DNA of 24,349 nucleotides from a virus. Where the stretch lies: the IMG/VR virus record IMGVR_UViG_3300009164_002862, positions 1-24,349 of that record; one strand, given 5' to 3'. Below, in pieces: positions 2,471-23,811 of the stretch (the stretch's first letter is position 1; each line of letters opens with the position of its first letter). The notes under the pieces are model-generated. The model was not told where the DNA came from and did not search any database. It saw only the letters and a list, made by a program, of their open reading frames with translations. Position numbers and translations under genes: made by a program.

Positions 2471-2490
2471 AATAGATAAAATAGTTTTTA

Positions 2491-2498: not shown

Positions 2499-2543
2499 AG
2501 CAAAAATAAAGTTTGAAAAATTGAAATAGAACCATGTAGCCTG

Positions 2544-2551: not shown

Positions 2552-2573
2552 TAATTGACAACGGGACTTAGTT

Positions 2574-3030: not shown

Positions 3031-3049
3031 ATGTTTTTAAGGTGACAAT

Positions 3050-3346: not shown

Positions 3347-3352
3347 ACAAAA

Positions 3353-3437: not shown

Positions 3438-3458
3438 TTTTTATATTAAGGAAAAATT

Positions 3459-3938: not shown

Positions 3939-3939
3939 T

Positions 3940-4074: not shown

Positions 4075-4080
4075 AAAGTT

Positions 4081-4157
<77 letters not shown>

Positions 4158-4163
4158 TTTAAA

Positions 4164-5611: not shown

Positions 5612-5922
5612 AATACATTGTAGATATTGATGGAACAATTTGCAATAATACATTTGGTGATTATCATAGTGCTCAACCTTTTGTAGATCGAATTGCACAT
5701 TTTAATAAACTGTTTGATAAAGGACATGAGATTCATTATTGGACAGCAAGAGGCGGCAATTCTGGTATTGATTGGACAACCCTTACAAGACAACAATTTG
5801 CCAATTGGCAAGTTAAGTATACAACATTAAAATTAGGTAAACCCGCATACGATATTTGGATCGATGATAAAGCGGTAAACAGCGAGGTATATTACAATGA
5901 GAATATTGCTAACAGGCCATAG
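5608..5922 (+). CDS. Small HAD-superfamily phosphatase, possible GmhB stand-in
   Basis: A 104-residue HAD-fold protein: MKYIVDIDGTICNN gives motif I (nucleophile D6 and D8), HYWTARGG supplies motif II (Thr), and YDIWIDDKA gives the motif IV acidic pair. Lys between them (for example in KLGKPAYD) could serve motif III. It is much smaller than GmhB (about 190 residues) and resembles the cap-less HAD proteins of capsule and sugar clusters. In ADP-heptose synthesis a phosphatase must remove the C7 phosphate between the kinase and nucleotidyltransferase steps, and this gene sits in exactly that company. That substrate is inferred from context only. It shares ATGA with the cupin gene stop and overlaps hldD by 26 nt. 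Confidence 0.75.
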   Translation: MKYIVDIDGTICNNTFGDYHSAQPFVDRIAHFNKLFDKGHEIHYWTARGGNSGIDWTTLTRQQFANWQVKYTTLKLGKPAYDIWIDDKAVNSEVYYNENIANRP

Positions 5923-6676
5923 AGGATTTATTGGTTCTAGACTATTGACAGCCTTGCAGGGTCGAGGCGATGATGTTACTACGTATGAATTTGACGATGG
6001 CGTAAGACCCGGTGTTATGGATTTTGAGTGGGTTATTCATGCTGGTGCGATCAGTTCAACAACAGAAAAAGATATTGATAAAGTACTAAGACAAAATTAC
6101 GAATTCTCTATGGACTTATACGACGAGTGTAAGACATTCGGAATTAATTTACAGTATTCTAGTTCTGCTAGTGTGTATGGATTGAATAAAGAGTTTTGTG
6201 AAAATTCTCCGTTGGATCCAAGAACGCCTTATGCTTGGTCAAAGTATTTGTTTGAAAGATATGTAAAACAACATCATCATGATAGCCCTACTGTGCAAGG
6301 ATTTAGATATTTTAATGTATGGGCCTGGGAAGGTGAAGAACATAAAGGCAATCAGGCAAGTCCATTTGCTCAGTTTAAGAGACAAGCGTTAGAAACAGGT
6401 AAGATTAAGTTATTTGAGAATAGTGAAAATTATCGCAGAGACTTTGTTCATGTGGACACTATTGTAGATTATCATTTAAAGTTCTTGGAATCAAGTAGAT
6501 CTGGAATCTTTAATATGGGCACAGGTAAAACTATGAGTTTTTATGATGTTGCGGATATGGTTGCAGAAGAATATCATGCGGAGATTGAAATAATCCCGAT
6601 GCCAGAAATTTTAAAGTCAAGTTATCAGGAGTATACTTGTGCAGATATGCGCAAGACAAATGAAGTAGTATTGTAA
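5897..6676 (+). CDS. hldD: ADP-L-glycero-D-manno-heptose 6-epimerase (HldD-like), C-terminally short
   Basis: A 259-residue extended short-chain dehydrogenase/reductase. TGHRGFIG (6-13) is the NAD(P)-binding glycine motif; SSSASVYG (88-95) and Y112-x-x-x-K116 in PYAWSKYLFERY form the catalytic triad. Specific HldD features are HAGAISSTTE, GFRYFNVW, EGEEHKGNQASPFAQF, KLFENSENYRRDFVHV, GIFNMGTGK and the YQEYTCADMRK stretch, so the call rests on more than the fold. HldD converts ADP-D-glycero- to ADP-L-glycero-beta-D-manno-heptose. Bacterial HldD has about 310 residues; this one stops soon after the DMRKT stretch, losing roughly the last 25-30 residues, and has a shorter N-terminal half. tRNA-Gly begins two bases after the stop. 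Confidence 0.88.
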   Translation: MRILLTGHRGFIGSRLLTALQGRGDDVTTYEFDDGVRPGVMDFEWVIHAGAISSTTEKDIDKVLRQNYEFSMDLYDECKTFGINLQYSSSASVYGLNKEFCENSPLDPRTPYAWSKYLFERYVKQHHHDSPTVQGFRYFNVWAWEGEEHKGNQASPFAQFKRQALETGKIKLFENSENYRRDFVHVDTIVDYHLKFLESSRSGIFNMGTGKTMSFYDVADMVAEEYHAEIEIIPMPEILKSSYQEYTCADMRKTNEVVL

Positions 6677-6678
6677 AT

Positions 6679-6752
6679 GCGGGGTTGGCATATTGGTTGT
6701 GTCCTAGCCTTCCAAGCTAGTCAAAGGAGTTCGATTCTCCTACCCCGCTCCA
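6679..6752 (+). tRNA. tRNA-Gly (anticodon TCC)
   Basis: Acceptor GCGGGGT/ACCCCGC, anticodon stem CTAGC/GCTAG with loop CTTCCAA, T-arm AGGAG-TTCGATT-CTCCT, encoded CCA. The terminal A of CCA is also the first base of the AGGA ribosome site of the gene at 6762. Confidence 0.95.
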
Positions 6753-8761: not shown

Positions 8762-8769
8762 TATAAATA
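8762..8769 (+). promoter_or_regulatory. Late promoter TATAAATA
   Basis: Exact T4 late octamer, 27 nt from the ATG at 8797; continues as TATAAATAATT. It starts the virion module. In T4, such boxes are read by gp55-programmed RNA polymerase. Confidence 0.75.
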
Positions 8770-8796: not shown

Positions 8797-9225
8797 ATGA
8801 GATCTTTACATGAATCAATCGCAGGTATGTTATTGGGAAAAATCATTAATGAAAATCACGATGAAATTGTTAAGCATTTGAATAGCTCCGCTGGTCCTCA
8901 TATTGGTGGAGAAACACCGGCATTTACCCATGGTTCAGGTGCAAATAAAGATGTGCCCGCAGAACCCAAACATACTTCTCCTGTAAAAGATCATTATTAC
9001 CACCAAGGACAATTTGCTACAGGTGGTGCAGACGAGCAACATGAACACCATATTACAGTAAGTCATCATGCTGATAATACTGCAACTGTTCAACATTCCT
9101 CATATCGTCAAAAATGGTCTGACAGAGCACAAGATTATAATGACTCTGAAAAACATAAAGAAAAGCATTTTAAAGATTTGCCATCTGCAATAGCACACGT
9201 TAAAACTCTGCATACTCCAGAGTAA
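8797..9225 (+). CDS. His-rich late protein, tandem paralogue A
   Basis: A 142-residue protein with 18 histidines (about 13%). The N-terminus MRSLHESIAGMLLGKIINEN is amphipathic; a polar middle holds KHTSPVKDHYYH and HHITVSHHADNTA; the C-terminus is FKDLPSAIAHVKTLH. The next gene is a clear paralogue with the same three blocks. I do not recognise the family. His clusters could bind metal, but no defined site can be assigned. Late promoter and strong ribosome site (TTGGAG) point to production during virion assembly. The SLHES start is a weaker match to the capsid-targeting pattern than those of the following genes. Confidence 0.75.
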   Translation: MRSLHESIAGMLLGKIINENHDEIVKHLNSSAGPHIGGETPAFTHGSGANKDVPAEPKHTSPVKDHYYHQGQFATGGADEQHEHHITVSHHADNTATVQHSSYRQKWSDRAQDYNDSEKHKEKHFKDLPSAIAHVKTLHTPE

Positions 9226-9229
9226 TTCT

Positions 9230-9237
9230 GATAAATA
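9230..9237 (+). promoter_or_regulatory. Late promoter GATAAATA
   Basis: One-base variant of the late octamer, 25 nt from the ATG at 9263 and followed by the same 15-bp leader segment (ATAGTTGGAGCAATA, 9247-9261) that precedes the paralogue at 8797 (8781-8795). Promoter and leader were evidently duplicated with the gene. Confidence 0.65.
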
Positions 9238-9262
9238 ATATCAAACATAGTTGGAGCAATAA

Positions 9263-9688
9263 ATGAGCACATTATACGAATCAATTGCAGGTATCCTGTT
9301 AGGAGAATCAGTTCCTATCAATCATCATGAGGAAGTTGTTAAAAAATTAAATGCTGCTAGCGGAAACAAAATACACGGAGAGACTCCTAATTTTACTCAT
9401 TTATCAGGTGATTCGGCCCGGAAACAGATCGAACCAGAAGATAAACCAAAGCATAAGTCTCCAATAAAAGATCATTATTTCCATGAACACGAGAACCAGG
9501 CGTATAATGTTCATGTTAGTCATCATAAAGATAATACCGCATCTGTTAAGATTGTTCATTATAAACAAGCCGGTAGTAACAAGACTTGGTCCGGGCAAGG
9601 TGACCAAGATGAGCATGTTCATGAAAAACACCTTAAAGATTTGCCTTCTGCAATAGCACACGTTAAAGCTCTGCATACTTCTAAGTAA
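9263..9688 (+). CDS. His-rich late protein, tandem paralogue B
   Basis: A 141-residue paralogue of the preceding gene: LYESIAGILLGE, HGETPNFTH, HKSPIKDHYFH, VHVSHHKDNTASV and HLKDLPSAIAHVKALHT line up in order. It holds 17 histidines. The 3' ends are unusually similar at DNA level (9635-9679 against 9172-9216, 43 of 45 bases), while the middles have diverged, which suggests gene conversion or strong constraint on the C-terminus. Function unknown; with its own late promoter and an intrinsic terminator behind it, it closes a two-gene late unit. Confidence 0.75.
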   Translation: MSTLYESIAGILLGESVPINHHEEVVKKLNAASGNKIHGETPNFTHLSGDSARKQIEPEDKPKHKSPIKDHYFHEHENQAYNVHVSHHKDNTASVKIVHYKQAGSNKTWSGQGDQDEHVHEKHLKDLPSAIAHVKALHTSK

Positions 9689-9747: not shown

Positions 9748-9755
9748 TATAAATA
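9748..9755 (+). promoter_or_regulatory. Late promoter TATAAATA
   Basis: Exact late octamer 29 nt from the ATG at 9785, downstream of the terminator at 9700-9723. It would drive the genes from 9785 to at least 12926, which overlap each other. Confidence 0.72.
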
Positions 9756-9784: not shown

Positions 9785-11185
9785 ATGCAAGAATTAATCA
9801 CATTCAAGGCGTATAATGCGCTTATCGAATCTCATGATTTCTCAAACCTAACCCCGTATCACAGTTATTCCACAGATGATGGACATAATGTAGACGTGCA
9901 TATCTTTCGCAATGGGGATCATAAAACCGCAATATTTCACAATAAAAGTTTAGACGCAATTACAAAGATTGTGGCCTTTCCGCATTCTTCTAATTTAAGT
10001 AAAGAAGAATTAATGCATGCAGGAAAAGAAGTTCAACAAAATGATCTTAAGGAATCTACAGAATTTATTCAAGAAAAAATGCAGACGTTGGCTCCTAGTG
10101 CAGGAGAACCTGCAACTAAACTAGATAACGATCCTGCAGGAAAAATTGCTGAGATTCATTTGTATAAAGAATTAGTAAATCATAGGCATAAACAAGCTGG
10201 AAGTTTTGGGTCTAAAGAACATAAATTTGAATTAAAACAGCATGATGATGAATTAACTAAAATTACTAAAGACCAAGATCAAAATCAAGTGGCTGTTAGA
10301 GCAGCCCACGGTAAAGCAATGGCAGCTGCTGTAATTAAGCATGTAGAAGAACATCATCCAGGTGCAACAATATCTCGTATAGGTAGAACATCAAAAGTCG
10401 GAGATATTGGTAGATTTACAAAAGGTGTACATACTGATGGTCAAGAAAATCCATCAGATGTAACTTTAGATTTAAAACATTCAGACGGAGAACAATCTTA
10501 TTTAGGAGTGTCTGCAAAGTCCACGGGCAAATCCTCCGGCAATATTACAGCAAAAAATCCCGGAGTTGCCGGACAAGATGAATTTTTATCCGGCGGACCT
10601 GCAACACGAAAATCTCAAGCAAACGAAATTGCCATGGCAGGTAAAGAAAAAATACTTAAAAAATGGAAAATGGATCATTTACCCGCTAGATCTAAAACAG
10701 GAGATTCTATACACGCAAGAGTTACCGACCCAGACCCTAAAACAGGCAAACCCGTAGTTAATGAACTTGGCAAAAAAATGAATGTGGATTTTAAACAAAA
10801 TAATGAAGAAACCGCGCGAGAATTGCAGATACAATTAGAACACCTTATGTCAAAGGGAGCAAAGGGTCATCAACATATAGCAAAATGGTTACATAATAAT
10901 TTAGTATCAGATAAAGGTATGACTTGGATCAAAGCAACAGGACATGGAAAAGAACTTAGTAAAGTCCATGCAGTAGTTAAACATGGAAGCGAGTCTCCAC
11001 TAAGTGATATCTTAAAAAATAAGAATACAAAATTTGCAATACATCGATCAGGATCAGCCGTGACACTACATAAGGTTGAGAAAGACGGCACACATACTCA
11101 AATTGTTCGAGTAGCAACAAAACCAAATTCGCACGGGGCATATTCAAGCCAAATGTATAATTTTACACCATCGAGTAATTTCTAA
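9785..11185 (+). CDS. Late protein with possible PD-(D/E)XK nuclease-like core, 466 aa
   Basis: A 466-residue hydrophilic protein. Residues 119-132 (GKIAEIHLYKELVN) give a helix with Glu at 123, residues 222-231 (NPSDVTLDLK) a strand with Asp at 225, and residues 239-247 (YLGVSAKST) a strand ending in S-x-K; Glu-Asp-(S)xK in that order is the arrangement of PD-(D/E)XK nucleases, with Ser replacing the usual acidic residue. This is a hypothesis, not an identification. The following lysine/glycine-rich part and C-terminal IHRSGSAVTLHKVEKDG...IVRVATKPN hairpin are unassigned. N-terminus MQELITFKAYNALIE has an L-I-E triplet like a T4 prohead-protease site. It ends in TAATG with the ligase-like gene. 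Confidence 0.7.
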   Translation: MQELITFKAYNALIESHDFSNLTPYHSYSTDDGHNVDVHIFRNGDHKTAIFHNKSLDAITKIVAFPHSSNLSKEELMHAGKEVQQNDLKESTEFIQEKMQTLAPSAGEPATKLDNDPAGKIAEIHLYKELVNHRHKQAGSFGSKEHKFELKQHDDELTKITKDQDQNQVAVRAAHGKAMAAAVIKHVEEHHPGATISRIGRTSKVGDIGRFTKGVHTDGQENPSDVTLDLKHSDGEQSYLGVSAKSTGKSSGNITAKNPGVAGQDEFLSGGPATRKSQANEIAMAGKEKILKKWKMDHLPARSKTGDSIHARVTDPDPKTGKPVVNELGKKMNVDFKQNNEETARELQIQLEHLMSKGAKGHQHIAKWLHNNLVSDKGMTWIKATGHGKELSKVHAVVKHGSESPLSDILKNKNTKFAIHRSGSAVTLHKVEKDGTHTQIVRVATKPNSHGAYSSQMYNFTPSSNF

Positions 11186-12354
11186 TGTTATCATTTAGCA
11201 CATATCTAGTTGAATCTGCGAACGAGGAAAAGTTAACACACCTTGAACACGCAGAAGATCATCCTATTAATGCTGGCGAAGAAGGCTTCAAACACGCATT
11301 TAATACTTTAAACGATACACATAACGCTTTGTTAGGTAAAAGATCAAAGGTATCCTTATCTACAAAGTATGATGGTTCGCCTAGTATTGTGTTTGGTCAT
11401 CATCCAGAGTTTCCTAGATTCTTTGTTGCATCTAAATCTGCATTCAATAAGAATCCTAAATTAAATTTTACGGAATCTGATATTGAAAAGAATCACGGTC
11501 ACGCACCTGGACTTGTTGCTAAATTAAAGGCAGCTCTACATCACTTACCTAAAGTAACTCCCAACGAGGGCGTGTACCAAGGTGATGTAATGTATAATAA
11601 GACAGATAAAGATGTATCTGATTCTGGTGGGTCATATCATTTTAAGCCAAACACAATTACATACTCGGCTAAAAAGGGCAGTGAAGAAGGTCAAAAAATT
11701 AAAGATGCAAAATTTGGTGTAGCAGTTCACACTGCATATCACGGCGATACACTTGAGAATATGAAGGCCGAGTATAATACAGACACTTCAAAGTTTAATT
11801 CTCATCCAGACGTCCATGTAATTGATACTAAGTTTGATCCAAAGACTGCACATTATACGCCAGATGCTCAACAAGAATATCATTCTCATATGTCTAAAGC
11901 AGTTGAGGCGCATAACGCTTTACCAAATTACGATCACCTCGAAGGGCATGATACATCTTTAAAGACATATATCAATTCAACTGTTAGAGAAGCCACAAAG
12001 CCATCTGTAGAAGGTTATAAGAAACATCTACAAGGTTCTCTGCAAAAAGATATTGATAAAGTTAAAACGGATAAGGCCAAACAAAATAAAGCTGCCGATA
12101 TGAATGAGAAGTTAGATCATATCGAAACTAATAAAGATGCATTTAAAACAACATTAGATATCCACAAACATCTGCAGAATGCTAAGAATGTATTAGTGCA
12201 GACTATGTCAAATGCAGATTATAAATTCCATCATAGCATTGATGGTAAAAAAGTTAAACCCGAAGGCCATGTTGCAGTATTAAACAACAGACCAACAAAG
12301 CTAGTAGATAGAGAAGAATTTAGTGCAGCTAACTTTGCAGCGAGACCAAGATGA
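11185..12354 (+). CDS. RNA/DNA-ligase-like covalent nucleotidyltransferase
   Basis: A 389-residue protein showing the motifs of the ligase/capping-enzyme nucleotidyltransferase fold in order: K61-Y-D-G in STKYDGSPSIVFG (motif I, with the lysine that would carry AMP), GVYQGDVMY (129-137, motif III-like), KFGVAVHTAY (176-185, motif IIIa-like), PEGHVAV (359-365, motif IV EG) and K372-LVDREEF (motif V). I recall a family of uncharacterised T4-like phage proteins with the same layout (probably DUF6267); activity has not, to my knowledge, been shown. Residues 225-340 form a long helical insert between motifs IIIa and IV, far longer than in small RNA ligases. The N-terminus MLSFSTYLVE closely matches a capsid-targeting sequence with a cleavable LVE. 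Overlaps both neighbours. Confidence 0.8.
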   Translation: MLSFSTYLVESANEEKLTHLEHAEDHPINAGEEGFKHAFNTLNDTHNALLGKRSKVSLSTKYDGSPSIVFGHHPEFPRFFVASKSAFNKNPKLNFTESDIEKNHGHAPGLVAKLKAALHHLPKVTPNEGVYQGDVMYNKTDKDVSDSGGSYHFKPNTITYSAKKGSEEGQKIKDAKFGVAVHTAYHGDTLENMKAEYNTDTSKFNSHPDVHVIDTKFDPKTAHYTPDAQQEYHSHMSKAVEAHNALPNYDHLEGHDTSLKTYINSTVREATKPSVEGYKKHLQGSLQKDIDKVKTDKAKQNKAADMNEKLDHIETNKDAFKTTLDIHKHLQNAKNVLVQTMSNADYKFHHSIDGKKVKPEGHVAVLNNRPTKLVDREEFSAANFAARPR

Positions 12355-12926
12355 AAAATTTTAAACAAGTAAGAGAAGAAACACAATCCGTAACAGAGGG
12401 CGACCGCCCTGGATTATGGGACAACATCCATGCAAAGCGTGAAAGAATCAAAAATGGTTCAGGCGAACGTATGCGTAAACCTGGAAGTAAAGGTGCTCCA
12501 ACAGCACAAGCATTTAAACAATCTGCTGAATCAGTAGAAGATCTATTTGACCTTATCGAAGATGTAATTGAAGATATTGCAAAAGAAAACAATGTTGATT
12601 CAGATGTGATTTGGGAAGACCTTAAAGACATTACGGATGAAGAGTTATTAGAAGTTGCAGCTTGGCAACGCAAAGAGGGAAAGAATCCTGAAGGCGGATT
12701 AAACAAAGCCGGCATTGCTTCATATCGTAGAGAAAATCCTGGTTCAAAGTTACAAATGGCTGTAACAACTAAACCATCTAAATTAAAACCCGGAAGTAAA
12801 GCAGCAAATAGAAGAAAGTCTTTTTGTGCTCGTATGGGTGGAATGAAGAAGCGATTAACATCCGCTAAGACTGCTAGAGACCCTGATTCAAGAATTAACA
12901 AAGCACTTAGAAAGTGGAACTGTTAA
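12351..12926 (+). CDS. DUF6321-like late protein, 191 aa
   Basis: Two recognisable phage modules. Residues 20-56 (PGLWDNIHAKRERI, then GERMRKPGSKGAPTAQAF) form a basic motif shared by many phage proteins. Residues 104-191 (AWQRKEGKNPEGGLNKAGIA, KPGSKAANRRKSFCARMGGM, ending ALRKWNC) match what I recall as DUF6321, including the invariant-looking SFCARMxGM and terminal RKWNC. Between them lies an acidic helix (VEDLFDLIEDVIEDIAKENN, 62-81). Its function is unknown; I know the domain from late regions of T4-like phages. The start overlaps the ligase-like gene by 4 nt (ATGA). N-terminal MKNFKQVREE is a looser form of the F-x-x-hydrophobic-x-E tag. Confidence 0.78.
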   Translation: MKNFKQVREETQSVTEGDRPGLWDNIHAKRERIKNGSGERMRKPGSKGAPTAQAFKQSAESVEDLFDLIEDVIEDIAKENNVDSDVIWEDLKDITDEELLEVAAWQRKEGKNPEGGLNKAGIASYRRENPGSKLQMAVTTKPSKLKPGSKAANRRKSFCARMGGMKKRLTSAKTARDPDSRINKALRKWNC

Positions 12927-13018
12927 TGCTTTTATCACTGAGCCTCATAGCATATAATAACATCATGTCAATAGAATGTCTATAACTTTTGGTTAACTTT
13001 GGATAAAACGGAGGTAAG

Positions 13019-13117
13019 ATGAGTTGGTTCAAACACAAACCTAAAAAAAATCCCCCTAAACCAAAACATCCTTACCCGGTACCTCCTGTAAACCAAACAT
13101 CCTTATTTTATAAATAA
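13019..13117 (+). CDS. Small Pro/Lys-rich protein, 32 aa
   Basis: ATG preceded by GGAGG (13010-13014), the best ribosome site in the late module. The 32 residues start MSWFKHKPKKNPPKPKHPYP and end NQTSLFYK. I recall short proteins with an M-x-WFKKKPPKK start in many T4-like phages, without known function. Its composition suggests an extended, nucleic-acid- or membrane-surface-binding peptide. The stop codon lies inside the late promoter of the next gene. Confidence 0.65.
   Translation: MSWFKHKPKKNPPKPKHPYPVPPVNQTSLFYK
13109..13116 (+). promoter_or_regulatory. Late promoter TATAAATA
   Basis: Exact late octamer 31 nt from the ATG at 13148. It overlaps the last codons of the 32-residue ORF, so promoter and coding sequence share bases. 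Confidence 0.7.
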
Positions 13118-13147
13118 TAAGTATCAACTATATTCTAATGGAAAACA

Positions 13148-15085
13148 ATGGACTTTAAACAATTCATCACAGAAGCGCCTGAAAAATCAGCCGCTTTTGC
13201 CTTTGGGCGATTCAATCCGCCTACCGTTGGACACGAAAAACTCATTAAAAAAGTCAAATCTGTTGCTGACGAGCACAATGCTGACGCACATATTGTAGCG
13301 TCCCATTCTGAAGGTACATCAAAAGATCCTGTCCCTGCTAAGGCTAAGGTAGGATATCTAAAACACGTAGCACCAGAAGGCACTAAAGTATCCGGTGCTT
13401 CTAAAGAATCTCCTACTTTCCTTCACGCAGCATCTAAATTGCATAGCCAAGGTTATAAACATTTGGTTATGGTTGCTGGGTCTGATCGCGTGGATGAGTA
13501 CCATAAGACATTAAACAAGTATAATAATGTTGCCGGTAAACACGGTCACTATAATTTTAAATCAATTAAAGTAGTTTCAGCAGGACAAAGAGATCCTGAT
13601 GCAGAAGGCGTAGAGGGAATGTCTGGAACTAAGATGCGTGCTCATGCCAGAGCAGGCGAAATGAAACAATTTAAATCTGGTCTACCTAAAGCATTACATC
13701 CTCATGCAGAGGAAATTGCCAACCACATTAAAGCGGTTAAAGAAGATTACGAAAATCCAAATAGATTTGATTGGGGTACACCTGCAGGCACAGACCATGC
13801 TATAGGTATGACTCCTGAAATGAAGATTGTGTGTCCAGTTGGTGAAGTATTCAGCAAGGATAAAGGAATGTGCGTGCCAGTAAGAGAATCTTACATAGCA
13901 GGCGAGATTTTTAAATTAAACGATTTAGTTGAATCAACTAACGGGACACGGGGCAAGATCGTATACAGAGGCTCATCATACGTTACTATACAACAAGAAA
14001 GCGGCGATACATCTAAACATTGGCTAAAAGACATACAAGAAATATTTGGCGAAAAAGAAGGTACAGGACTACACGTTGATCTACGCCCCAAATTATCTAA
14101 GACTTCGAAGTTACAAAACTTCAAGAAATTTTCTGATGGTCCGCAGGAAAAAGAAAAAATTAAATACAAAGGCGCATATAAGCCAACATATGTTGAGGGA
14201 AAACAAATCCCTGCATTGTTTTTATCTAAAGAGCAATTGGCTGAGATGAGCAACAGTAGAATGGAAGTTACATTCGATGGTTATACCACATCGTTTCTTC
14301 ATACGTGCCCAGGTGCATCTGCTCAATTAAAAGAATTAATTACAAGAGTTGAATTTCCAAAGAAATATGTTCTGCAAGCAATTATGGCAACAGATCAATA
14401 TCTTGAGATTGAAAAAGAAGCAAAGGCAAAAGGTTTTGCAGATCAAGATTTAATTCATGATTTTAATATGAAGTTTGCTATTGCTCATGACACAATGAAT
14501 GTACTTGGCGTTGAAGATAAGGATTTAATGTATATGCAAAAGCATTTGAAGGCAATGTCTGATCTTAATATGCACCGAGATGGTACTTATGCCAATGAAC
14601 CAGGTTCAACCGTTACAGTTGTTGGCGCAGGTGGCGTAGAAGAAGATGTTGCGTCTGCAGATTTTGAATATATTCCAAGCAAAGATCCAATGACAGGTAA
14701 AATAAAATACGTCAAGCATCGTGCTAGAATGATAGATACTTCTACCAAAGAACAACCAAAGACTTTATCTTCAATTAGACAAAGTCAAAAAGATAAAGAT
14801 GAGGAAAACAAAATGAAACTCAAAGAAGCAAGTGAGAGAGACGTCAACTTTACAGACAGTAAAGATGTGTTCCATGGCATAGATAAGCCTATTGCCGGTC
14901 AAGGACATCCCGACAAACCAGTAGGCATGGTATCATTTAAATCTTTTATGCAAGATCCTGCAAATCAAGCATTTAAAAAATATCATGAGAATGATAGACA
15001 AGAAGTTCATGCAGCACAAGTAGAAATTGCAGGTCAAAAGACAGCTGCATATAAAATGATGAAGAAAGCTAAACAGGTAGAATAA
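13148..15085 (+). CDS. Late protein with N-terminal nucleotidylyltransferase domain, 645 aa
   Basis: Residues about 15-185 form an NMN-adenylyltransferase/cytidylyltransferase-type domain: FAFGRFNPPTVGHEKLI (17-33) contains the nucleotide-binding T-x-G-H motif, VMVAGSDRVDEY (107-118) is the central strand-loop, and GMSGTKMRAHARAGE (157-171) is the family's GISSTxIR motif. Such enzymes make NAD or CDP-type products. The remaining ~450 residues have no domain I recognise; segments include a GKIVYRGSSYVTIQQESGD beta hairpin and the helical DQDLIHDFNMKFAIAHDTMN. This is a large fusion for the family (usually 170-350 aa). N-terminus MDFKQFITE is the best match in the window to the T4 head-targeting signal, with I-T-E cleavage site at residue 9, so the enzyme may be a packaged cargo. 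Confidence 0.82.
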   Translation: MDFKQFITEAPEKSAAFAFGRFNPPTVGHEKLIKKVKSVADEHNADAHIVASHSEGTSKDPVPAKAKVGYLKHVAPEGTKVSGASKESPTFLHAASKLHSQGYKHLVMVAGSDRVDEYHKTLNKYNNVAGKHGHYNFKSIKVVSAGQRDPDAEGVEGMSGTKMRAHARAGEMKQFKSGLPKALHPHAEEIANHIKAVKEDYENPNRFDWGTPAGTDHAIGMTPEMKIVCPVGEVFSKDKGMCVPVRESYIAGEIFKLNDLVESTNGTRGKIVYRGSSYVTIQQESGDTSKHWLKDIQEIFGEKEGTGLHVDLRPKLSKTSKLQNFKKFSDGPQEKEKIKYKGAYKPTYVEGKQIPALFLSKEQLAEMSNSRMEVTFDGYTTSFLHTCPGASAQLKELITRVEFPKKYVLQAIMATDQYLEIEKEAKAKGFADQDLIHDFNMKFAIAHDTMNVLGVEDKDLMYMQKHLKAMSDLNMHRDGTYANEPGSTVTVVGAGGVEEDVASADFEYIPSKDPMTGKIKYVKHRARMIDTSTKEQPKTLSSIRQSQKDKDEENKMKLKEASERDVNFTDSKDVFHGIDKPIAGQGHPDKPVGMVSFKSFMQDPANQAFKKYHENDRQEVHAAQVEIAGQKTAAYKMMKKAKQVE

Positions 15086-15520
15086 ATGGAAGCATTACAA
15101 TTATCATTGCAAAAGACTTTAGCTGACGCATTCACGCTATATTTTAAGGCACACACATTTCATTGGAATGTTGAAGGTCCTGATTTTAAACAGTATCATG
15201 ATTTGTTTGGCGGAATTTACGAAGAAGTTTTTGGTTCTGTAGATGATATTGCAGAACATATTCGTCAAATAGATGGATACACTCCAACATCTTTAAAACA
15301 ACTTTCTGGACTTACTATTATTTCTGAAGAAGATACCGTAATGCCAGCATTGCAAATGGTTAAAAATTTATTAGATGCAAATAATTTAATGCTTGTTTCT
15401 TTAATGAGATCATATAGAGAAGCAGATGCAGCATCGGAATTAGGTTTAGCAAACTTCTTACAAGATAGAATTGCTGCACATCAGAAACATGGTTGGATGC
15501 TAAAAGCAACACTAAAATGA
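15086..15520 (+). CDS. dps-like: Dps-family ferritin-like protein
   Basis: A 144-residue Dps-type protein. The ferroxidase residues typical of Dps are in place: H26 and W27 in AHTFHWNVEG (22-31), H38 in QYHDLF, and D53/D54/E57 in SVDDIAEHIRQID. Dps dodecamers oxidise and store iron and can bind DNA; they protect DNA from hydroxyl radicals. It lacks the Lys-rich N-terminal tail used by E. coli Dps to bind DNA. It lies one base after the nucleotidylyltransferase gene and shares ATGA with the next, inside a structural operon, rather than near the rubrerythrin pair at 3459-4074. Late expression suggests protection of progeny DNA or iron capture for the virion, which is inference. Confidence 0.9.
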   Translation: MEALQLSLQKTLADAFTLYFKAHTFHWNVEGPDFKQYHDLFGGIYEEVFGSVDDIAEHIRQIDGYTPTSLKQLSGLTIISEEDTVMPALQMVKNLLDANNLMLVSLMRSYREADAASELGLANFLQDRIAAHQKHGWMLKATLK

Positions 15521-15969
15521 TTACATTTCAAGAATTTTTAAGTACCGATATAACTGAAGAAGAGCTTGATGCTATTGTAGAAGAACTACAATGGGATGAT
15601 ATTGCTGATCTTTGGGAAGATTCAGAGTTTATCGATGACCTTGAAGAAGGCTTATCAGCAACTGCAAGAATGAAAAAATCTCAAAAGTTTAAATCCAGAA
15701 AGACTGCGGTAGGCCAAGCACGCAGATTAAAATTAAGACGTGCCGCATCAACAGATGTTATTAACAGTAGATCAAAAACTGCAGCAAGACGCTCAATTAT
15801 TAAAAAATTATTAAAAGGTAGAGATAAAAAACAATTATCTGCTGCTGAAAAAGACAGGATTGAAAAACAAGCATCTAATATTCTATCAGGACAAAAAGGA
15901 CTTGTTGTAAGAATGATTCCGAAGGTTAGAAGTTTAGAAAGATCAAGATTAGCTGGCAAAAAGAAATGA
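15517..15969 (+). CDS. Acidic-basic late protein, head/core-like, 150 aa
   Basis: The ATG at 15517 shares ATGA with the Dps stop, preferred over the out-of-place upstream in-frame ATG at 15493. The 150-residue product begins MITFQEFLSTDITEEELD (the F-x-x-F-L tag), continues with a strongly acidic helix (to about residue 45), then switches to a very basic helical region with repeated K/R (FKSRKTAVGQARRLKLRRAA, LLKGRDKKQLSAAEKDRIEK) and ends MIPKVRSLERSRLAGKKK. The latter half resembles conserved phage virion-module proteins of unknown function. The acidic-then-basic layout fits an internal head or scaffold-like component. Confidence 0.72.
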   Translation: MITFQEFLSTDITEEELDAIVEELQWDDIADLWEDSEFIDDLEEGLSATARMKKSQKFKSRKTAVGQARRLKLRRAASTDVINSRSKTAARRSIIKKLLKGRDKKQLSAAEKDRIEKQASNILSGQKGLVVRMIPKVRSLERSRLAGKKK

Positions 15970-15980
15970 TTTCGGTTAGC

Positions 15981-15988
15981 CATAAATA
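15981..15988 (+). promoter_or_regulatory. Late promoter CATAAATA
   Basis: One-base variant of the late octamer, 29 nt from the ATG at 16018; a second, overlapping AATAAATA follows at 15988-15995. Confidence 0.6.
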
Positions 15989-16017
15989 ATAAATAGAATT
16001 CATTAAAGGACCTAAAA

Positions 16018-17325
16018 ATGACAAGAATTACAAATGAATTGTTTGAATCAATCAGACAAATTACACACCCAACTCCAGTTCAAGAAGCAAAATTGGATCC
16101 AGTTGGAAAAGAAGACGCAGATATTAATAATGATAAAAAAGTGGATCAAAGCGATACCTATTTAAAGAATCGTAGAGATAAAATTGCTGCAACTGTTAAA
16201 GAAGGCAGAGTAGATGCTGCTCATTTCTGTGCCACACACGTTGAACACGATCTATATGGCGAAGGCGAGTGCATTTCAGAAGCACATGCTGATCCAGATG
16301 AAAATGGCAACATTGCTTGGTACACAGTACAATTTGCTGACGGTGTTCGCAAAGTACAAACAGAAGCAGTTAAAGTTAAAAAAGGCAAAATGCATGAACA
16401 TGCCGAAGCAGATGCAGAGTCAATTGAAGAAAAGAAACTACATCCTAATCAACAAGTGTTAGATGTGCATGAGCCAGAGAAAGACAAATTAACTGCTAAA
16501 GATTTTGAAATGCTTCGTGCAGGCAAAAAAACAAAAACAGTTAAAGAAGCAACAATGGGCCATGCTGGTTCTGTAACAATGAAACAAGTTAACAAAAGCA
16601 GCGCATCTCCTACAGTTAAAGCTGCAATTAAAAAAGTTGCACCTGATATTAAATCTTATGGCGATAGAGCAGCTGCTCTAACAGCTGCAGGTATTAAGAG
16701 AGAATCTGTTGAACAAGTTACAGAATTATCAATTGGTACATTGAACAAAGTAAAACATGCTGCAGTGCGTGATGCTAATGATGCTATTCGCGATGGGGAT
16801 GACGCAAAAGCAGATAAGCGATATAACCTTGCTGGCAAAGCAAGCAATAAAGCTGAAATGAAATATAGAGCAGCTGGATTAAAACCATCTGGTCAGCATA
16901 CAATGGAAGAAGTTGAATTGGATGAAGGCATTGCAGAAACTATTGTTAAGCATAATGACTTTACAATTGAAATTACTGATAATCCCACATATGGCGACTT
17001 CTTAAGAGCAGTGCAATCTATTGTTAGAACAGATGAAGAATCAATGCAACAAGAAATTGTAGCTATTGCAGAAGAAGCATATGCAGAAAATTATGAAGAT
17101 GTGATTATCGAATCATTCACTAGAATGGAAATTGACGATAAAATGGCTGCTCACCGTAAGGCGGGCAACACAGTATCAAACGATAAGTTTAGTACTAAAA
17201 ACGGACAACCTTATGCTGAGTATGTTGTGACTGATAAGGAAGGTGGACGTAAGAAATATATTCACCATGGAACGGTTCGTCGCATGGAATCAATGCCAAG
17301 CGCAACCAAAAGAGATAAAGAGTAA
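16018..17325 (+). CDS. Late virion/core-like protein with EF-hand-like motif, 435 aa
   Basis: A 435-residue hydrophilic, low-aromatic protein. Residues 35-46 (DINNDKKVDQSD) form an EF-hand/dockerin-type calcium loop (acidic or Asn at 1, 3, 5, 9 and 12), followed by TYLKNRRDK; such segments recur in phage structural proteins. A beta-rich region (IAWYTVQFADGVRKVQTEAV, about 99-118) and repeated short E/K-rich helices follow. N-terminus MTRITNELFE has a LxE-type site at 8-10, and further LxE/IxE triplets occur, e.g. in EQVTELS. It may be a prohead core or internal head protein matured by a protease, or a baseplate/neck component. Late promoter and AAAGGA ribosome site. Confidence 0.7.
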   Translation: MTRITNELFESIRQITHPTPVQEAKLDPVGKEDADINNDKKVDQSDTYLKNRRDKIAATVKEGRVDAAHFCATHVEHDLYGEGECISEAHADPDENGNIAWYTVQFADGVRKVQTEAVKVKKGKMHEHAEADAESIEEKKLHPNQQVLDVHEPEKDKLTAKDFEMLRAGKKTKTVKEATMGHAGSVTMKQVNKSSASPTVKAAIKKVAPDIKSYGDRAAALTAAGIKRESVEQVTELSIGTLNKVKHAAVRDANDAIRDGDDAKADKRYNLAGKASNKAEMKYRAAGLKPSGQHTMEEVELDEGIAETIVKHNDFTIEITDNPTYGDFLRAVQSIVRTDEESMQQEIVAIAEEAYAENYEDVIIESFTRMEIDDKMAAHRKAGNTVSNDKFSTKNGQPYAEYVVTDKEGGRKKYIHHGTVRRMESMPSATKRDKE

Positions 17326-17344: not shown

Positions 17345-17352
17345 TATAAATA
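17345..17352 (+). promoter_or_regulatory. Late promoter TATAAATA
   Basis: Exact late octamer 20 nt from the ATG at 17373; followed by the ribosome site AGGAG. Confidence 0.75.
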
Positions 17353-17961: not shown

Positions 17962-20900
17962 ATGGCAGACGTAAAAATATCGGATCTGGTATCGGCCAAT
18001 GTAGTCAATAAGAACGACCTATTCTTATTGGTACAAGATGATTCTAGCAAGAATGTTTCAGCAGGAACGCTCTTTTCATCAATCACAGATCCTACATTAT
18101 CAGGAAATATCTTTATTAGCGGGCCTGTCCAAACCTTAACAGGTGTGGGCACCGTTAGTATTACCACAACTAGAACCGATTTATACGGCGGTGTATCTGC
18201 CGCTACTGCAGCCATTGCTAATGGCTCAGTATTGCCTTCCACTATCTATTTGTATACCAACGGCAAATCTGCTTCAGGTAGAGGTTTACAATTTGCAAAT
18301 GGTTCGCCATTCTTCAAGACCATTTATGTTCAACACATAAATGGCAAGATTAATTTGTCACTTGGTGCAAATGCAACAGGTACATTAAATCATGCACCGG
18401 AAGATTGGGTTGGTACAACTGGCCTAAGACCGTTTAATGATGGATTATATTTTGTTAAGGGCGCAGCATATACGTTTGACGTTAGCCACCCAACAAATGC
18501 TGGTAATATCATTGGATTATCTACATCCATTGATGGAACAAACACACTTGGTTTAGAATATACTGCAGGTGTTACTAGAACAGGTAGCCCAGGTAATGCA
18601 GGCGCTACCGTTGAATTTACTCCGGCTAATGTCAGTATTGACCAAGGCGGTAGAAATTATTTAGATATACCTAAGGGCGTAGATGGTCAATTAAAAGTTA
18701 TTAACTTAGTATCTACGAATGGCGGGCAGTTCGTAATATCAAGTAACATTCAAAACAACTTAGCAATTGAATTAAGAAGAGCAGGCGATTCTGCATTCTT
18801 AATGTATTCTGGTAATGCATGGATTTTAGTTGGGTCTAATCCAGGGTTACAAACTTCATTCTCTGGCACTTCTGACGATATTCCAGAAGGTCAAAAATTA
18901 TATTTCACAAACGCTAGAGCAAGAGCTGCCATTAGCGTTCCTGATAATACTTTAATTTATAATGCAACTACTGGTTCTATTAGAGCTAACGTATTAGCAT
19001 TAAGTAACATTAACCTAGGTAATATTATTCCCAATTCGGATAGTATTTCTGAAGGTGCAGTTAACCTATATTATTCAAATGCAAGAGTTCATGCTAATTT
19101 AAGATTAGCAAGCATTGATGCCCTTGCTGACGTTGATACAAGAACGATTGCGCCTCAAACCGGCTATGCATTAATTTGGAACGGCACTCGTTGGATACCT
19201 AACGTAGTTACCGCTACAGCTTTAACAGGCACAGTGGATTATTCAAACATAGCTGAAAGAGCTAATGTTTCTAATACGGTTTTATCGTTAAGTAACTTTA
19301 CAACTGCTAATTTATTAGAAAGCTCTTCTAATCTATATTACTCTAACGATAGAGTATTTGCCAATTTATCGTTGGCAAATATAAATGTATTAAGAGATGT
19401 TGATACTGTAACAGTTGCACCTGCATACGGTGACGCATTATCTTGGAACGGCAATACTTGGGTACCTAGCGCAATTAATGCTACAAGCGCATTAACGGCA
19501 AATTTAGCAAACCTTGTTTTATCGTTAAGCAATTTCACAACTGCTAATTTAACAGAAGGTTCAAGATTATATTATACTAATGCAAGAGTTAATGCTCAAG
19601 TTGAATCTAATTTAAGATTGAAGGCAAACGTAGTTGACTTAACAACAGCCAATGTAACAGAATTAAATAACTTATATTACTCTAACGATAGAGTTTATTC
19701 TAATATAAGTTTAGCAAGTATTAATGCTTTAGCAGATGTTGATACATTAACATCTCCCCCATCCGCAGGGCAAGCATTGGGTTGGAATGGAACAGCTTGG
19801 ATACCAACTACTGTTTCGGCATCAAATGCTAATACGGCGACTGTAGCAAATACAGTATTATCTTTAAGCAATTTTACAACAAGCAACATTGCCGAAGGTT
19901 CTAATCTATACTATACCAATGCTAGAGTTTATGCAAATGTAATTGGTTTACTAAACGCAAAAGCGAATGTAGTAGATTTAACAACTGCTAATGTAATTGA
20001 AACATCTGGTAATTTGTATTTTACAAATGCAAGAGTTTATGCAAATGTTTCTCCTCTTTTAAATTTAAAAGCGAATGTAGTAGATTTAACAACTGCTAAT
20101 GTAATTGAAACATCTGGTAATTTGTATTTTACAAATGCAAGAGTTTATGCAAATGTTATTGGTTTATTAAACACAAAAGCAAATGTAGTAGATTTAACTA
20201 CTGCGAATATTGCAGAATTAAATAACTTATATTACTCTAACGATAGAGTATATGCTAATATTTCATTAGCTAATATTAATGTATTGGCCGATGTAAATGC
20301 AATAAACCCGATTGCAGGTCAGGTACTTTCTTGGAGCGGCAACGCTTGGATAGCAAATAGTGTTACTATTCCGTCAACAGAATATTCAAATATTGCTAAT
20401 ACTGTTATTAGTGTTGTTGCAGCTTCATTAAACGCAAATACTGCGAACATTGCAAACTTAGTATTAACATTAAGTAATTTCACAACTGCTAATTTAGCAG
20501 AAGGTTCTAATTTATATTACACCAATGCAAGAGTTAATGCTCAAGTAGCACCTAATCTAGCGTTAAAAGCTAACGTAGTTGACTTAACAACTGCTAATGT
20601 TGTAGAGTTAAACAATTTATATTACACCAATGCAAGAGTTAATGCTCAAGTTGAACCTAATTTAAGATTAAAAGCAAATGTAATAGATTTAACAACTGCT
20701 AATGTTGTAGAGTTAAACAATTTATATTACACCAATGCAAGAGTTAATGCTCAAGTTGAATCCAATTTAAGATTAAAGGCAAACGTAGTTGATTTAACTA
20801 CTGCAAATGTACAAGAATCTGCTTCGAATTTATATTATACGAATGCAAGAGTTTATTCCAATGTTACTGAAAGATTTGGATCTATTAACACAAATCTTGT

Positions 20901-23811
20901 TCCAGATGAAGATGAAGTACATGATTTAGGTGCTCCTGGTAAAAAATGGAAAGATTTATACTTATCAGGATTCTCTTTAACATTAGGTAATACTAAGATT
21001 ACGTCGGGTGCAGGTGGCGCGCTATCTGTACAAGGTCTTGTTTCAAATACATCCGTTCTTACAACATCGATTACGTCAAATATATGGAATACCCTCTATA
21101 CTGCTAATGTAATAGAAACTGCGGGAAATCTATACTACACTAATGCAAGAGTCAATGCTCAAGTTGAATCCAATTTAAGATTAAAGGCAAATGTAGTTGA
21201 TTTAACTACCGCTAATGTTGCAGAATTAAACAACTTATATTATACCAATGCAAGAGTAAGATCTACATTATCTGGTGGTACCGGAGTTACTTATAACAAT
21301 ACGTCTGGTCTAATTTCAATTGGTCAAAATGTATCTACCACATCTAATGTAACATTTGGTGCATTGAACGTTACTGGTGAAATTAATTTCTACGGAAACG
21401 TAACAACCCATTCTTCAAATAATCTATCCATTTCGGATAATATGATTTATTTGAACAATGGATCTGAGACTTCTAATCCAGATTTAGGCTTTGCAGGTAA
21501 CTACAATGACGGTACATATCGCCATGCTGGATTCTTCCGCGATGCTACAGATGGTAAGTGGAAAGTTTATGATAATTATTCTCCAGAGCCAGATGCTAAT
21601 ATATTCATTGATACAGATCATGCGTCATTCAGATTAGCTAATTTATCAGCGGCAACATTCTTTGGTAACGTACAAGGCACAGTTTCTACATTAAGTAATT
21701 TTACAACTGCTAACTTAGCAGAAGGCACTAATTTATACTACACCAATGCAAGAGTTAATGCGCAGGTTCAATCTAATCTCGCATTGAAGGCCAATGTAGT
21801 TGATTTAACAACTGCCAATGTTAGAGAATTAAATAATCTATATTATTCGAATGCCCGTGTTCTTTCTAATGTTCAGCAGATGAGCATTAATGTTCTATCT
21901 GATGTAGATGTAACAGGCATTACTACAAATGGAACACTAATTTGGAATGGCTCAACCTTTATCGCAGGTGTAGCATCCACTGCAAGTGAAGCAAATTATG
22001 CAAATGCTGCAGGAACTGCTAATGTTGCAGTATTTGCAACAACTGCTAATGTTGCCAATACCGTATTATCAATAAGTAATTTTACAACTGCTAATTTAGC
22101 AGAAGGTACAAATTTATATTATACAAATGCCAGAGTATATGCTAATGTTACACCGTTATTAGAGAGAAAAGCAAATGTAACTGATTTAACAACTGCAAAT
22201 GTTGTAGAATTAAACAACTTATATTATTCTAATGCTCGTGTTTTATCTAATGTAGCGCAAATGAGCATTAATGTTTTTGCAGATGTTGATATATCTGGCA
22301 TTGGCAATAATGGTATATTAATTTGGAATGGTACTTCTTTTGTTGCCGGTGCGGCAACGACTGCAACATCCGCCAATTTTGCAAATACGTCGGGTTACGC
22401 TAATGTAGCAACTGAGGCTAATTTTGCAAATACTGCAGGAACAGCAAATGTATCATTAGTTACTAATTTTGCAAATACTGCAGGAACAGCAAATGTATCA
22501 TTAGTTACTAATTTTGCAAATACTGCAGGTTACGCTAATACAGCAACATCCGCTAATTTCGCAAATACTGCAGGTTACGCTAATACAGCAACATCCGCTA
22601 ATTTCGCAAATACTGCAGGAACTGCAAATGTATCATTAGTTACAAATTTCGCAAATACTGCAGGAACGGCAAATGTCGCAAATACAGTATTATCAATTAG
22701 TAATTTTACCACAAGCAATTTAGCAGAAGGCACAAACTTATATTATACAAATGCAAGAGTTTATTCTAATGTTATTGCAGCATTACCTACTTACACCGGC
22801 AATGTTGGTGCGGGTAACGTAACAATTGGTTCAGGGACAGGTGGCTCTATTGTTGGTGCTAATTTAATTAGCGCAGTTAATATTTCTGGTACTAATTGGC
22901 AAGGACTATACAGTGCAAATGTAATTGAATCACAATCTGCATTGTATTATTCAAATGCTCGCGTACTATCTAATGTAGCGCAGATGAGCATTAATGTGTT
23001 TGCGGATGTTGATATAACAGGTATCGGCAACAACGGCATATTAATTTGGAATGGCACTTCTTTTGTTGCAGGTGCGGCAACGACTGCAACATCAGCCAAT
23101 TTTGCAAATGTTGCCGGAACTGCCAATGTTGCTAATTTTGCAAATGTTGCTGGTACTGCTAATGTAGCAAATACAGTATTATCAATTAGTAACTTCACTA
23201 CAAGCAATTTAGCAGAAGGTACAGATCTATATTACACAAATGCAAGAGTTAATGCACAAGTTGAACCCAATTTAAGATTAAAAGCTAATGTTACAGATTT
23301 TACAACTGCTAATGTTATTGAATTAAATAATCTTTATTATTCTAATGCTCGCGTACTATCCAATGTAGCGCAGATGAGCATTAATGTATTTGCAGATGTT
23401 GATATTTCAAATATACAACCAAATGACACATTGGTATGGGATGGTACAAAATTCATTAAAGCTAATGCTGGGCAATCCACAGCAATTGTTGCAAATGTAA
23501 CAACAACTGGCAATGTTGAAATAACAAGATTTAGTACTGCTACATATTCAACAGCAAAATATGTTTATACTGTAAAAGGTACAAGTGTTGGTTATACAAA
23601 CAAATATAATTCTGGTGAATTGTTAGTAATGCACGATGATACTAGTAGTTTTATAACACAATATGCTATGATGTCAAATGATATTAATTTAGATCTATTA
23701 TCATTCCAGGCAGGCATAAATAATGGTAATGTTATAATTTATGGAAATGTTTCAGATCCAGCAATACAAGTTACGGTAAAATTGACAGGTGCTACATATA
23801 CCGCAAAATAA
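17962..23811 (+). CDS. Giant repetitive tail-fibre-like protein, 1949 aa
   Basis: The N-terminus (KISDLVSANVVNKNDLFLLV) resembles fibre attachment domains. Near residue 169 comes YTFDVSHPTNAGNI, part of a domain I recall from marine phage fibres. Then the motif LYYTNARV (or LYYSNDRV, LYFTNARV) occurs about 23 times, mostly in modules LSNFTTANLAEG...LYYTNARVNAQVESN LRLKANVVDLTTANV. Inserted are ADVDT...WNG-x-x-W blades, a VHDLGAPGKKWKDLYLSG segment (about 985) and SISDNMIYLNNGSE...NPDLGFAG (about 1155). A short-period array follows at 22375-22689. The last ~110 residues (from about 1840) are a different, beta-rich domain that may be the receptor-binding tip. The role as host-contact fibre is inference from architecture. 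Confidence 0.88.
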   Translation: MADVKISDLVSANVVNKNDLFLLVQDDSSKNVSAGTLFSSITDPTLSGNIFISGPVQTLTGVGTVSITTTRTDLYGGVSAATAAIANGSVLPSTIYLYTNGKSASGRGLQFANGSPFFKTIYVQHINGKINLSLGANATGTLNHAPEDWVGTTGLRPFNDGLYFVKGAAYTFDVSHPTNAGNIIGLSTSIDGTNTLGLEYTAGVTRTGSPGNAGATVEFTPANVSIDQGGRNYLDIPKGVDGQLKVINLVSTNGGQFVISSNIQNNLAIELRRAGDSAFLMYSGNAWILVGSNPGLQTSFSGTSDDIPEGQKLYFTNARARAAISVPDNTLIYNATTGSIRANVLALSNINLGNIIPNSDSISEGAVNLYYSNARVHANLRLASIDALADVDTRTIAPQTGYALIWNGTRWIPNVVTATALTGTVDYSNIAERANVSNTVLSLSNFTTANLLESSSNLYYSNDRVFANLSLANINVLRDVDTVTVAPAYGDALSWNGNTWVPSAINATSALTANLANLVLSLSNFTTANLTEGSRLYYTNARVNAQVESNLRLKANVVDLTTANVTELNNLYYSNDRVYSNISLASINALADVDTLTSPPSAGQALGWNGTAWIPTTVSASNANTATVANTVLSLSNFTTSNIAEGSNLYYTNARVYANVIGLLNAKANVVDLTTANVIETSGNLYFTNARVYANVSPLLNLKANVVDLTTANVIETSGNLYFTNARVYANVIGLLNTKANVVDLTTANIAELNNLYYSNDRVYANISLANINVLADVNAINPIAGQVLSWSGNAWIANSVTIPSTEYSNIANTVISVVAASLNANTANIANLVLTLSNFTTANLAEGSNLYYTNARVNAQVAPNLALKANVVDLTTANVVELNNLYYTNARVNAQVEPNLRLKANVIDLTTANVVELNNLYYTNARVNAQVESNLRLKANVVDLTTANVQESASNLYYTNARVYSNVTERFGSINTNLVPDEDEVHDLGAPGKKWKDLYLSGFSLTLGNTKITSGAGGALSVQGLVSNTSVLTTSITSNIWNTLYTANVIETAGNLYYTNARVNAQVESNLRLKANVVDLTTANVAELNNLYYTNARVRSTLSGGTGVTYNNTSGLISIGQNVSTTSNVTFGALNVTGEINFYGNVTTHSSNNLSISDNMIYLNNGSETSNPDLGFAGNYNDGTYRHAGFFRDATDGKWKVYDNYSPEPDANIFIDTDHASFRLANLSAATFFGNVQGTVSTLSNFTTANLAEGTNLYYTNARVNAQVQSNLALKANVVDLTTANVRELNNLYYSNARVLSNVQQMSINVLSDVDVTGITTNGTLIWNGSTFIAGVASTASEANYANAAGTANVAVFATTANVANTVLSISNFTTANLAEGTNLYYTNARVYANVTPLLERKANVTDLTTANVVELNNLYYSNARVLSNVAQMSINVFADVDISGIGNNGILIWNGTSFVAGAATTATSANFANTSGYANVATEANFANTAGTANVSLVTNFANTAGTANVSLVTNFANTAGYANTATSANFANTAGYANTATSANFANTAGTANVSLVTNFANTAGTANVANTVLSISNFTTSNLAEGTNLYYTNARVYSNVIAALPTYTGNVGAGNVTIGSGTGGSIVGANLISAVNISGTNWQGLYSANVIESQSALYYSNARVLSNVAQMSINVFADVDITGIGNNGILIWNGTSFVAGAATTATSANFANVAGTANVANFANVAGTANVANTVLSISNFTTSNLAEGTDLYYTNARVNAQVEPNLRLKANVTDFTTANVIELNNLYYSNARVLSNVAQMSINVFADVDISNIQPNDTLVWDGTKFIKANAGQSTAIVANVTTTGNVEITRFSTATYSTAKYVYTVKGTSVGYTNKYNSGELLVMHDDTSSFITQYAMMSNDINLDLLSFQAGINNGNVIIYGNVSDPAIQVTVKLTGATYTAK
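19959..20157 (+). repeat. Near-perfect DNA direct repeats in the fibre gene (period 108 bp)
   Basis: Bases 19959-20049 recur exactly as 20067-20157: 91 identical bases, period 108 bp (36 codons). They encode KANVVDLTTANVIETSGNLYFTNARVYANV twice over. The identity at third positions suggests recent unequal recombination. Confidence 0.9.
22375..22689 (+). repeat. Seven tandem 45-bp repeats in the fibre gene
   Basis: Seven units of 15 codons, consensus NFANTAGTANVSLVT or NFANTAGYANTATSA. Some units are nearly identical at DNA level; two unit types alternate, indicating slippage or recombination. The period of 15 residues fits a regular beta-structure. Confidence 0.9.

Follow-up and report, generated by a model that had tools for sequence, protein, structure and literature searches.

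A capsid-targeting-like tag and its putative enzyme cargo in a genome fragment of a T4-like aquatic phage

Do unrelated late proteins of an aquatic phage share a label that loads them into the head? The question is raised by a virus contig fragment of 24,349 bases (IMG/VR record IMGVR_UViG_3300009164_002862, positions 1 to 24,349; hereafter the window), in which head genes are absent. A sequence-only reading of a late gene block in the window (positions 9785-17325) pointed to six N-termini resembling the capsid-targeting sequence (CTS) of phage T4 internal proteins, and proposed that enzymes are packaged by this route. All six N-termini are present as described, named here by gene start (Table 1), and the T4 comparison is correct, as IPIII and also IPII begin MKTYQEFIAEA. 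The T4 internal proteins are diverse defense proteins among which only the CTS is conserved (PMC3012670). We find it probable that the block encodes a CTS delivery system of the T4 type with enzyme cargo.

A tag shared by unrelated protein families

The N-terminal tag has the form M..F..[FY][LI]xE↓[AES] (the arrow marks the predicted cut) and is common to the unrelated families of 11185, 12351, 13148, and 15517. As a plain regular expression gave modest counts on whole genomes, with few genes tagged in each, we used profiles instead. The tag profile was trained on metagenomic relatives, with internal windows of five phage genomes as the null; the training family of a first version was contaminated by 15517-like C-terminal matches, and the profile was rebuilt. 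Circularity was avoided by a leave-one-family-out scheme, in which the T4 IPIII tag served as the seed, metagenomic homologues of three families were used for training, and the fourth family was scored. Above the 99% null threshold were 128 of 173 members, where about 2 (1%) were expected: 64/73 for DUF6267, 30/49 for the nucleotidylyltransferase, 28/44 for DUF6321, and 6/7 for the 15517-like proteins. The window members scored at p = 0.0001 (13148), 0.009 (12351), 0.011 (15517), and 0.017 (11185). Of the six proposed tags, those of 11185, 12351, and 13148 are thus recovered by profile, that of 15517 is weaker, that of 9785 is visible through homologues only, and that of 16018 falls away.

The tag also recurs on other proteins of relatives, as the sequence-only reading had suggested checking. 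In the fetched loci around the block, 237 of 1663 proteins are tagged; with both query families removed, the count is 84 of 1436 (5.8%), against about 0.75% expected. Clustering the tagged proteins on the sequence past residue 20 gave at least 12 unrelated families. Within DUF6321, the tag is retained while the domain behind it changes, with homologues beginning MKTYNQFIAEI or MKTFKQFVNEE. Orthologues of 13148 begin MKNFSSFLTEA (S-CREM2), MKSFLQFLKEA (S-SCSM1), MKKFSAFLNEA (S-SM1), MKKFSAFLTEA (S-RIM8), and MITFHVFITEA (P-RSM6).

The DUF6267 alignment resolves the tag by position. Glu10 is present in 48/48 sequences, position 8 is Leu or Ile in 46/48, position 7 is Phe, Tyr, or Leu in 47/47, and position 11 is Glu, Ala, or Ser in 45/47, with positions 2, 3, 5, 6, and 9 variable. 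An invariant Glu among drifting neighbors is the expected mark of a protease site combined with a binding surface, as judged from the alignment. In the predicted DUF6267 structure, residues 1-12 have a predicted local distance difference test score (pLDDT) below 50, and the domain that follows is well folded (pLDDT 92).

Tagged enzymes in the virions of relatives

Published virion proteomes allow the tag to be compared with packaging. Mass spectrometry (MS) of virions of Synechococcus phage S-CREM2 (PMC10665884) detected non-structural proteins that include an S-adenosylmethionine (SAM) hydrolase, a kinase, a cytidylyltransferase, a Cas9-annotated protein, and the products of open reading frames ORF13 and ORF136. 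Their tag sequences are MKDFDSFLEEF (SAM hydrolase), MKRFDAFLTEEE (kinase), MKNFSSFLTEA (cytidylyltransferase), MKDLHSFLTEQ (ORF13), and MQTFSMFFSED (ORF136), and the Cas9-annotated protein contains FASFMAEA. A tag profile trained without S-CREM2 placed the virion cytidylyltransferase, kinase, and SAM hydrolase at ranks 1-3 of 219 S-CREM2 proteins. At a threshold of 7, the profile marks 6/13 of the MS-positive proteins that lie outside the structural region, compared with 3/167 of the MS-negative proteins (Fisher p 3e-6); over all MS-positive non-structural proteins, the count is 6/28 (p 3e-4). The DUF6321 protein of S-CREM2 (ORF137) was detected in the virion, and its untagged DUF6267 protein (gp87) was not.

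The counterpart of 13148, an NMNAT/cytidylyltransferase, has been reported in virions of S-CREM2 (PMC10665884), S-SCSM1 (PMC9602691), and S-SM1 (PMC3037559), and it is tagged in 3/3; in S-SCSM1, it ranks first by profile. The proposal of a packaged enzyme set gains support from these tagged nucleotidylyltransferases in the virions of three relatives and from the further tagged virion enzymes of S-CREM2. Since virion proteomes of relatives hold the same or similarly tagged enzymes, phages of this kind probably deliver finished enzymes into the host along with their DNA. For the phage of the window itself, we infer packaging, cleavage, and injection, along with the functions of the cargo.

Several observations on these relatives stand apart. 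S-CREM2 has a second cluster of tagged virion enzymes on the minus strand (L234:3837-13331; SAM hydrolase, Cas9-annotated protein, kinase, ORF13, and ORF15), far from the cytidylyltransferase, and delivery of the SAM hydrolase at entry would fit an anti-restriction role. Next to the terminase genes of S-CREM2 and S-SCSM1 (L003:7302-11346, L246:42662-46947) lie tagged virion proteins without an assigned function, DUF6321 among them. The S-SCSM1 gene at 44215-44535 encodes a protein that begins MKTFKQFMSES and is absent from the virion protein list.

T4 control, protease, and cleavage site

As a positive control, the same profile placed IPIII and IPII at ranks 2 and 3 of 228 T4 proteins. The top match, above both, is the hypothetical 54-residue product of T4 gene 61.1 (L237:18966-19130), which begins MKTFKEFIKED and is, by this resemblance, a candidate unrecognized internal protein.

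A gp21-like protease, which the sequence-only reading had proposed to look for, is encoded in relatives: of the long relatives in which a head module is present, 9/9 have both gp23 and an S77 (gp21-like) protease. The last residues of most of their capsid propeptides fit the tag site (AFLSE↓A, LLTE↓A, ALFE↓A/T), at cut positions inferred from sequence; in HTVC008M (FLGE↓I) and others, the only difference lies past the cut. T4 gp23 contains FLTE↓A, its known cut. The protease specificity predicted for the relatives thus agrees with the tag ([LI]xE↓A/S). Tag-like N-termini are also encoded by the core and protease genes adjoining gp23 (G005, MSSKSFKSFVLEDAEE; protease, MKLITEITQELQYITEA).

The predicted cargo proteins

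The sequence-only reading saw enzyme-like domains in three of the proteins: a ligase-like nucleotidyltransferase, a nucleotidylyltransferase, and a possible nuclease. Motifs of the first two kinds are kept in 11185 and 13148, and a possible nuclease motif in 9785. By its motifs, 13148 is predicted to be an NMNAT/cytidylyltransferase-type enzyme: TVGH and SGTKMR are present in the window protein and in 91 and 76 of 115 homologues, respectively, some of which are fragments. A PDB sequence search with the nucleotidylyltransferase domain returned nothing useful.

In DUF6267, which corresponds to T4-GC71, the invariant columns across 49 sequences are K61, D63, G64, Q132xD134, E360, G361, V363, and K372. 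By motifs (K61xDG, QGD132-134, E360GxV, and K372), DUF6267 appears to be a covalent nucleotidyltransferase of the ligase/capping type. A structure search found no PDB match at E<=0.001, with adenylation domains of NAD+-dependent DNA ligases and an Rnl complex among the weak matches (E > 1), and a PDB sequence search with DUF6267 gave nothing useful.

The 9785 family has invariant E123, D225, and S243xK245. Foldseek searches with the 9785 model (pLDDT 72) returned the restriction enzyme HinP1I as the best match (E=0.0037, prob 0.99), followed by MspI (prob 0.72). Many 9785 homologues are clearly tagged (F..FLxE), for example MKSFKSFLTEQ and MDILSFNEFLTEA. Homologues of 15517 begin MISFKEFIEV, with the Glu present in MINFKDFIEEE; T4 IPI, a true internal protein, also begins MKTFKEFTST. 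The candidacy of 9785 and 15517 as tagged cargo rests on homologues.

We do not count 16018 among the CTS proteins: its start, MTRITNELFES, scores at chance (p 0.41), and homologues do not preserve the Glu (they show LFDA or do not match). This start resembles those of T4 gp24 (MAKINELLRES) and Alt (MELITELFDED). S-SCSM1 ORF92, annotated as a virion protein, is 60% identical to 16018 over the 40-residue EF-hand-like motif.

Proposed mechanism and competing explanations

We propose that the genes of the block form a late operon encoding cargo for the head of a T4-like aquatic phage. The CTS of about 10 residues at the start of each cargo protein would bind the prohead core, and the S77 protease would cut past [LI]xE, as in the major capsid propeptide. 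The folded enzyme would then stay in the DNA-filled head until it is ejected with the genome. The cargo would comprise the PD-(D/E)XK-like nuclease, the ligase-type nucleotidyltransferase (DUF6267), the DUF6321 protein, the NMNAT-like nucleotidylyltransferase, and the small basic protein. Their action would most likely fall in the first minutes of infection, ahead of phage gene expression, with host DNA, damaged nucleic acid ends, or nicotinamide adenine dinucleotide (NAD) as possible targets.

Several results weigh against this proposal. The whole-proteome test is weaker in S-SCSM1 (2/19 vs 1/223, p 0.017, at a threshold of 9, but without significance at 5 or 7), and score thresholds were picked after inspection of the scores. 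Most S-SCSM1 virion proteins of unknown function are untagged; with so many tagless proteins in virions, carrying the tag can at best suffice for packaging and is not a requirement. The authors of the S-CREM2 (PMC10665884) and S-SCSM1 (PMC9602691) studies allow for co-purification, and we found N-terminal peptide data on the mature proteins for none of the relatives. The S77 protease family (PF03420) was not found in the 24-kb window, a fragment lacking head genes, and the window tags of 9785 and 16018 score at chance. Conservation is also uneven. The cyanophage DUF6267 proteins that we looked at are untagged and begin directly at the domain, 30 of the 81 nucleotidylyltransferase homologues with complete N-termini are untagged by regular expression, and many freshwater nucleotidylyltransferases begin MKSIHITQGRFNP, without a tag. 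Loss of the N-termini among homologues, named in the sequence-only reading as evidence against its proposal, therefore occurs in part: it affects DUF6267 in most of the cyanophages that we looked at and the nucleotidylyltransferase in some freshwater contigs. Since some lineages lack it, a fixed arrangement is contradicted; the tag appears lineage-specific, in a pattern suggesting that cargo proteins gain and lose this label.

Could the motif be a real core-binding and cleavage signal on proteins that mainly help assembly or form the structural core, and are not delivered as effectors? The tag-like core and protease N-termini beside gp23 would fit, as would the 16018 and DUF6321 families, which seem non-enzymatic. 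We nevertheless consider this unlikely, as the cargo includes proteins predicted to fold as enzymes, with their catalytic motifs intact (NMNAT-like, DUF6267, and nuclease-like in the window; kinase and SAM hydrolase in S-CREM2), and its content differs from lineage to lineage, unlike that of core scaffold genes. A quite improbable explanation is that ordinary late or metabolic proteins co-purify with virions and share a common amphipathic helix without a packaging role. Both proteome studies raise co-purification, and three MS-negative S-CREM2 proteins score > 7; against it, a profile trained elsewhere predicts the S-CREM2 virion proteins, the same profile ranks T4 internal proteins near the top, and the Glu at the protease site is invariant while its neighbors drift. 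Least credible of all is a chance collection of six short motifs. Two of the six indeed score at chance, yet the leave-one-family-out test recovers far more homologues than the roughly two expected.

CTS-directed delivery thus remains our preferred explanation, and known systems offer partial parallels. T4 IPI, IPII, and IPIII share with the block an N-terminal M..[FY]..F[IL]xE tag on unrelated proteins, late expression, and, to judge by the relatives, a T4-type head with an S77 protease. The T4 proteins are small inhibitors, whereas the putative window cargo comprises larger predicted enzymes, with more Ala, Glu, or Ser past the cut. The T4 ADP-ribosyltransferase Alt is likewise an enzyme that travels in the head and enters the host with the DNA, but its start does not match the tag (rank 118 of T4 proteins), and no sequence relation was seen. 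The tagged virion NMNAT/cytidylyltransferases of S-SM1, S-SCSM1, and S-CREM2 are homologous to 13148, which differs in having a longer C-terminal part. In the portions consulted, the three papers (PMC3037559, PMC9602691, PMC10665884) mention no targeting sequence and leave virion carriage open. The giant phages SPN3US and phiKZ are also reported to carry large sets of head proteins, several of which are cut by the prohead protease and ejected, but they belong to another lineage and use other propeptides. A phage nucleotidylyltransferase in NAD synthesis would fit the NAD+ reconstitution pathways (NARP) that counter NAD-depleting defenses, although no Adps or Namat partner was identified in the window. 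NARP enzymes are not known as packaged cargo.

With the tag, sequence can be used to predict which of the many unknown proteins of T4-like phages, marine or freshwater, are taken into the host. The tag also suggests why NMNAT, a SAM hydrolase, and a kinase appear in cyanophage virion proteomes, a point that the authors of those studies did not settle, and it could reveal early-acting counter-defense enzymes in abundant ocean viruses. A wider view seems possible to us, with the balance tipping slightly against it: T4-like phages of aquatic bacteria may have a general delivery system in which a portable tag of about 10 residues loads many enzymes and lineages gain and lose tags, such that the injected set (nuclease, end-sealing ligase, NAD-synthesizing enzyme, SAM hydrolase, and kinase) would be a fast-evolving arsenal against first-minute host defenses.

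Genomic context and late promoters

By its protein matches, the window is assigned to an uncultured T4-like (Kyanoviridae-type) phage. The matches are to Pelagibacter phage HTVC008M, Methylophilales phage Melnitz, and cyanophages, marine and freshwater T4-like phages that are all Kyanoviridae-type. Window, HTVC008M, and Melnitz share a gene order of upstream protein, DUF6267, small proteins, nucleotidylyltransferase, and more late proteins.

The number of ATAAATA boxes in the window is by itself not above chance. Their placement is distinctive, as 8/9 plus-strand boxes sit 20-31 bp upstream of a gene start (0/20000 random placements). At the promoter level, this placement fits T4-type late transcription of the block.

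Table 1. Features of the late block and its surroundings (window positions; all on the plus strand; arrows mark predicted cuts)
Feature	Positions	Strand	Basis
T4-type late promoter box TATAAATA, before 8797	8762..8769	+	
Late small protein, MRSLHESIAGMLL, paralogue of 9263	8797..9225	+	own late-type box; no CTS by profile
Late-type box ATAAATA, before 9263	9231..9237	+	
Late small protein, MSTLYESIAGILL, paralogue of 8797	9263..9688	+	own late-type box
Late promoter box TATAAATA, before 9785	9748..9755	+	
Degenerate tag MQELITFKAYNALIE↓S	9785..9832	+	profile 2.1, p 0.20
PD-(D/E)XK-like nuclease (putative), 466 aa	9785..11185	+	alignment and Foldseek
Tag MLSFSTYLVE↓S of DUF6267 protein	11185..11214	+	profile FSTYLVES 12.4, p 0.0008
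DUF6267 protein	11185..12354	+	PF19782, E=1.7e-98
Tag MKNFKQVREE of DUF6321 protein	12351..12380	+	profile FKQVREET 12.9, p 0.0005
DUF6321 protein, 191 aa	12351..12926	+	PF19846
Late promoter box TATAAATA, before 13148	13109..13116	+	
Tag MDFKQFITE↓A of nucleotidylyltransferase	13148..13174	+	profile FKQFITEA 21.8, p 0.0001
NMNAT/cytidylyltransferase-like enzyme, 645 aa	13148..15085	+	Pfam PF01467 above cut-off; phrog_3041/395 cytidyltransferase
Dps/ferritin-like protein, untagged, inside block	15086..15520	+	PF00210, E=8.4e-23; tag score at chance
Tag-like start MITFQEFLST, final E lost	15517..15546	+	profile 8.1, p 0.012
Small basic protein, 150 aa	15517..15969	+	weak phrog_23027 match
Tandem ATAAATA boxes, before 16018	15982..15995	+	
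Late protein with DPVGKEDADINNDKKVDQSD EF-hand-like motif	16018..17325	+	tag profile 0.0, p 0.41
Late promoter box TATAAATA, before 17373	17345..17352	+	

The Dps/ferritin-like gene at 15086 is kept in many related loci (67 homologues). Upstream of the nuclease-like gene, 8797-9688 holds a tandem pair of paralogous genes with nucleotide repeats at 8774/9240 and 9160/9623. Their products share a conserved N-terminus, L[HY]ESIA.LL, in which LHE↓S is possibly another cut site; by profile, it is not a CTS. The first 6.8 kb of the window (positions 1-6752) contain 15 tRNA genes amid sugar-nucleotide, groES-like, and other metabolic genes. At the other end, 17962-23811 encodes a repetitive late protein of 1949 residues with LTTANV.ELNNLYYSN/TNARV repeats, probably a tail fiber.

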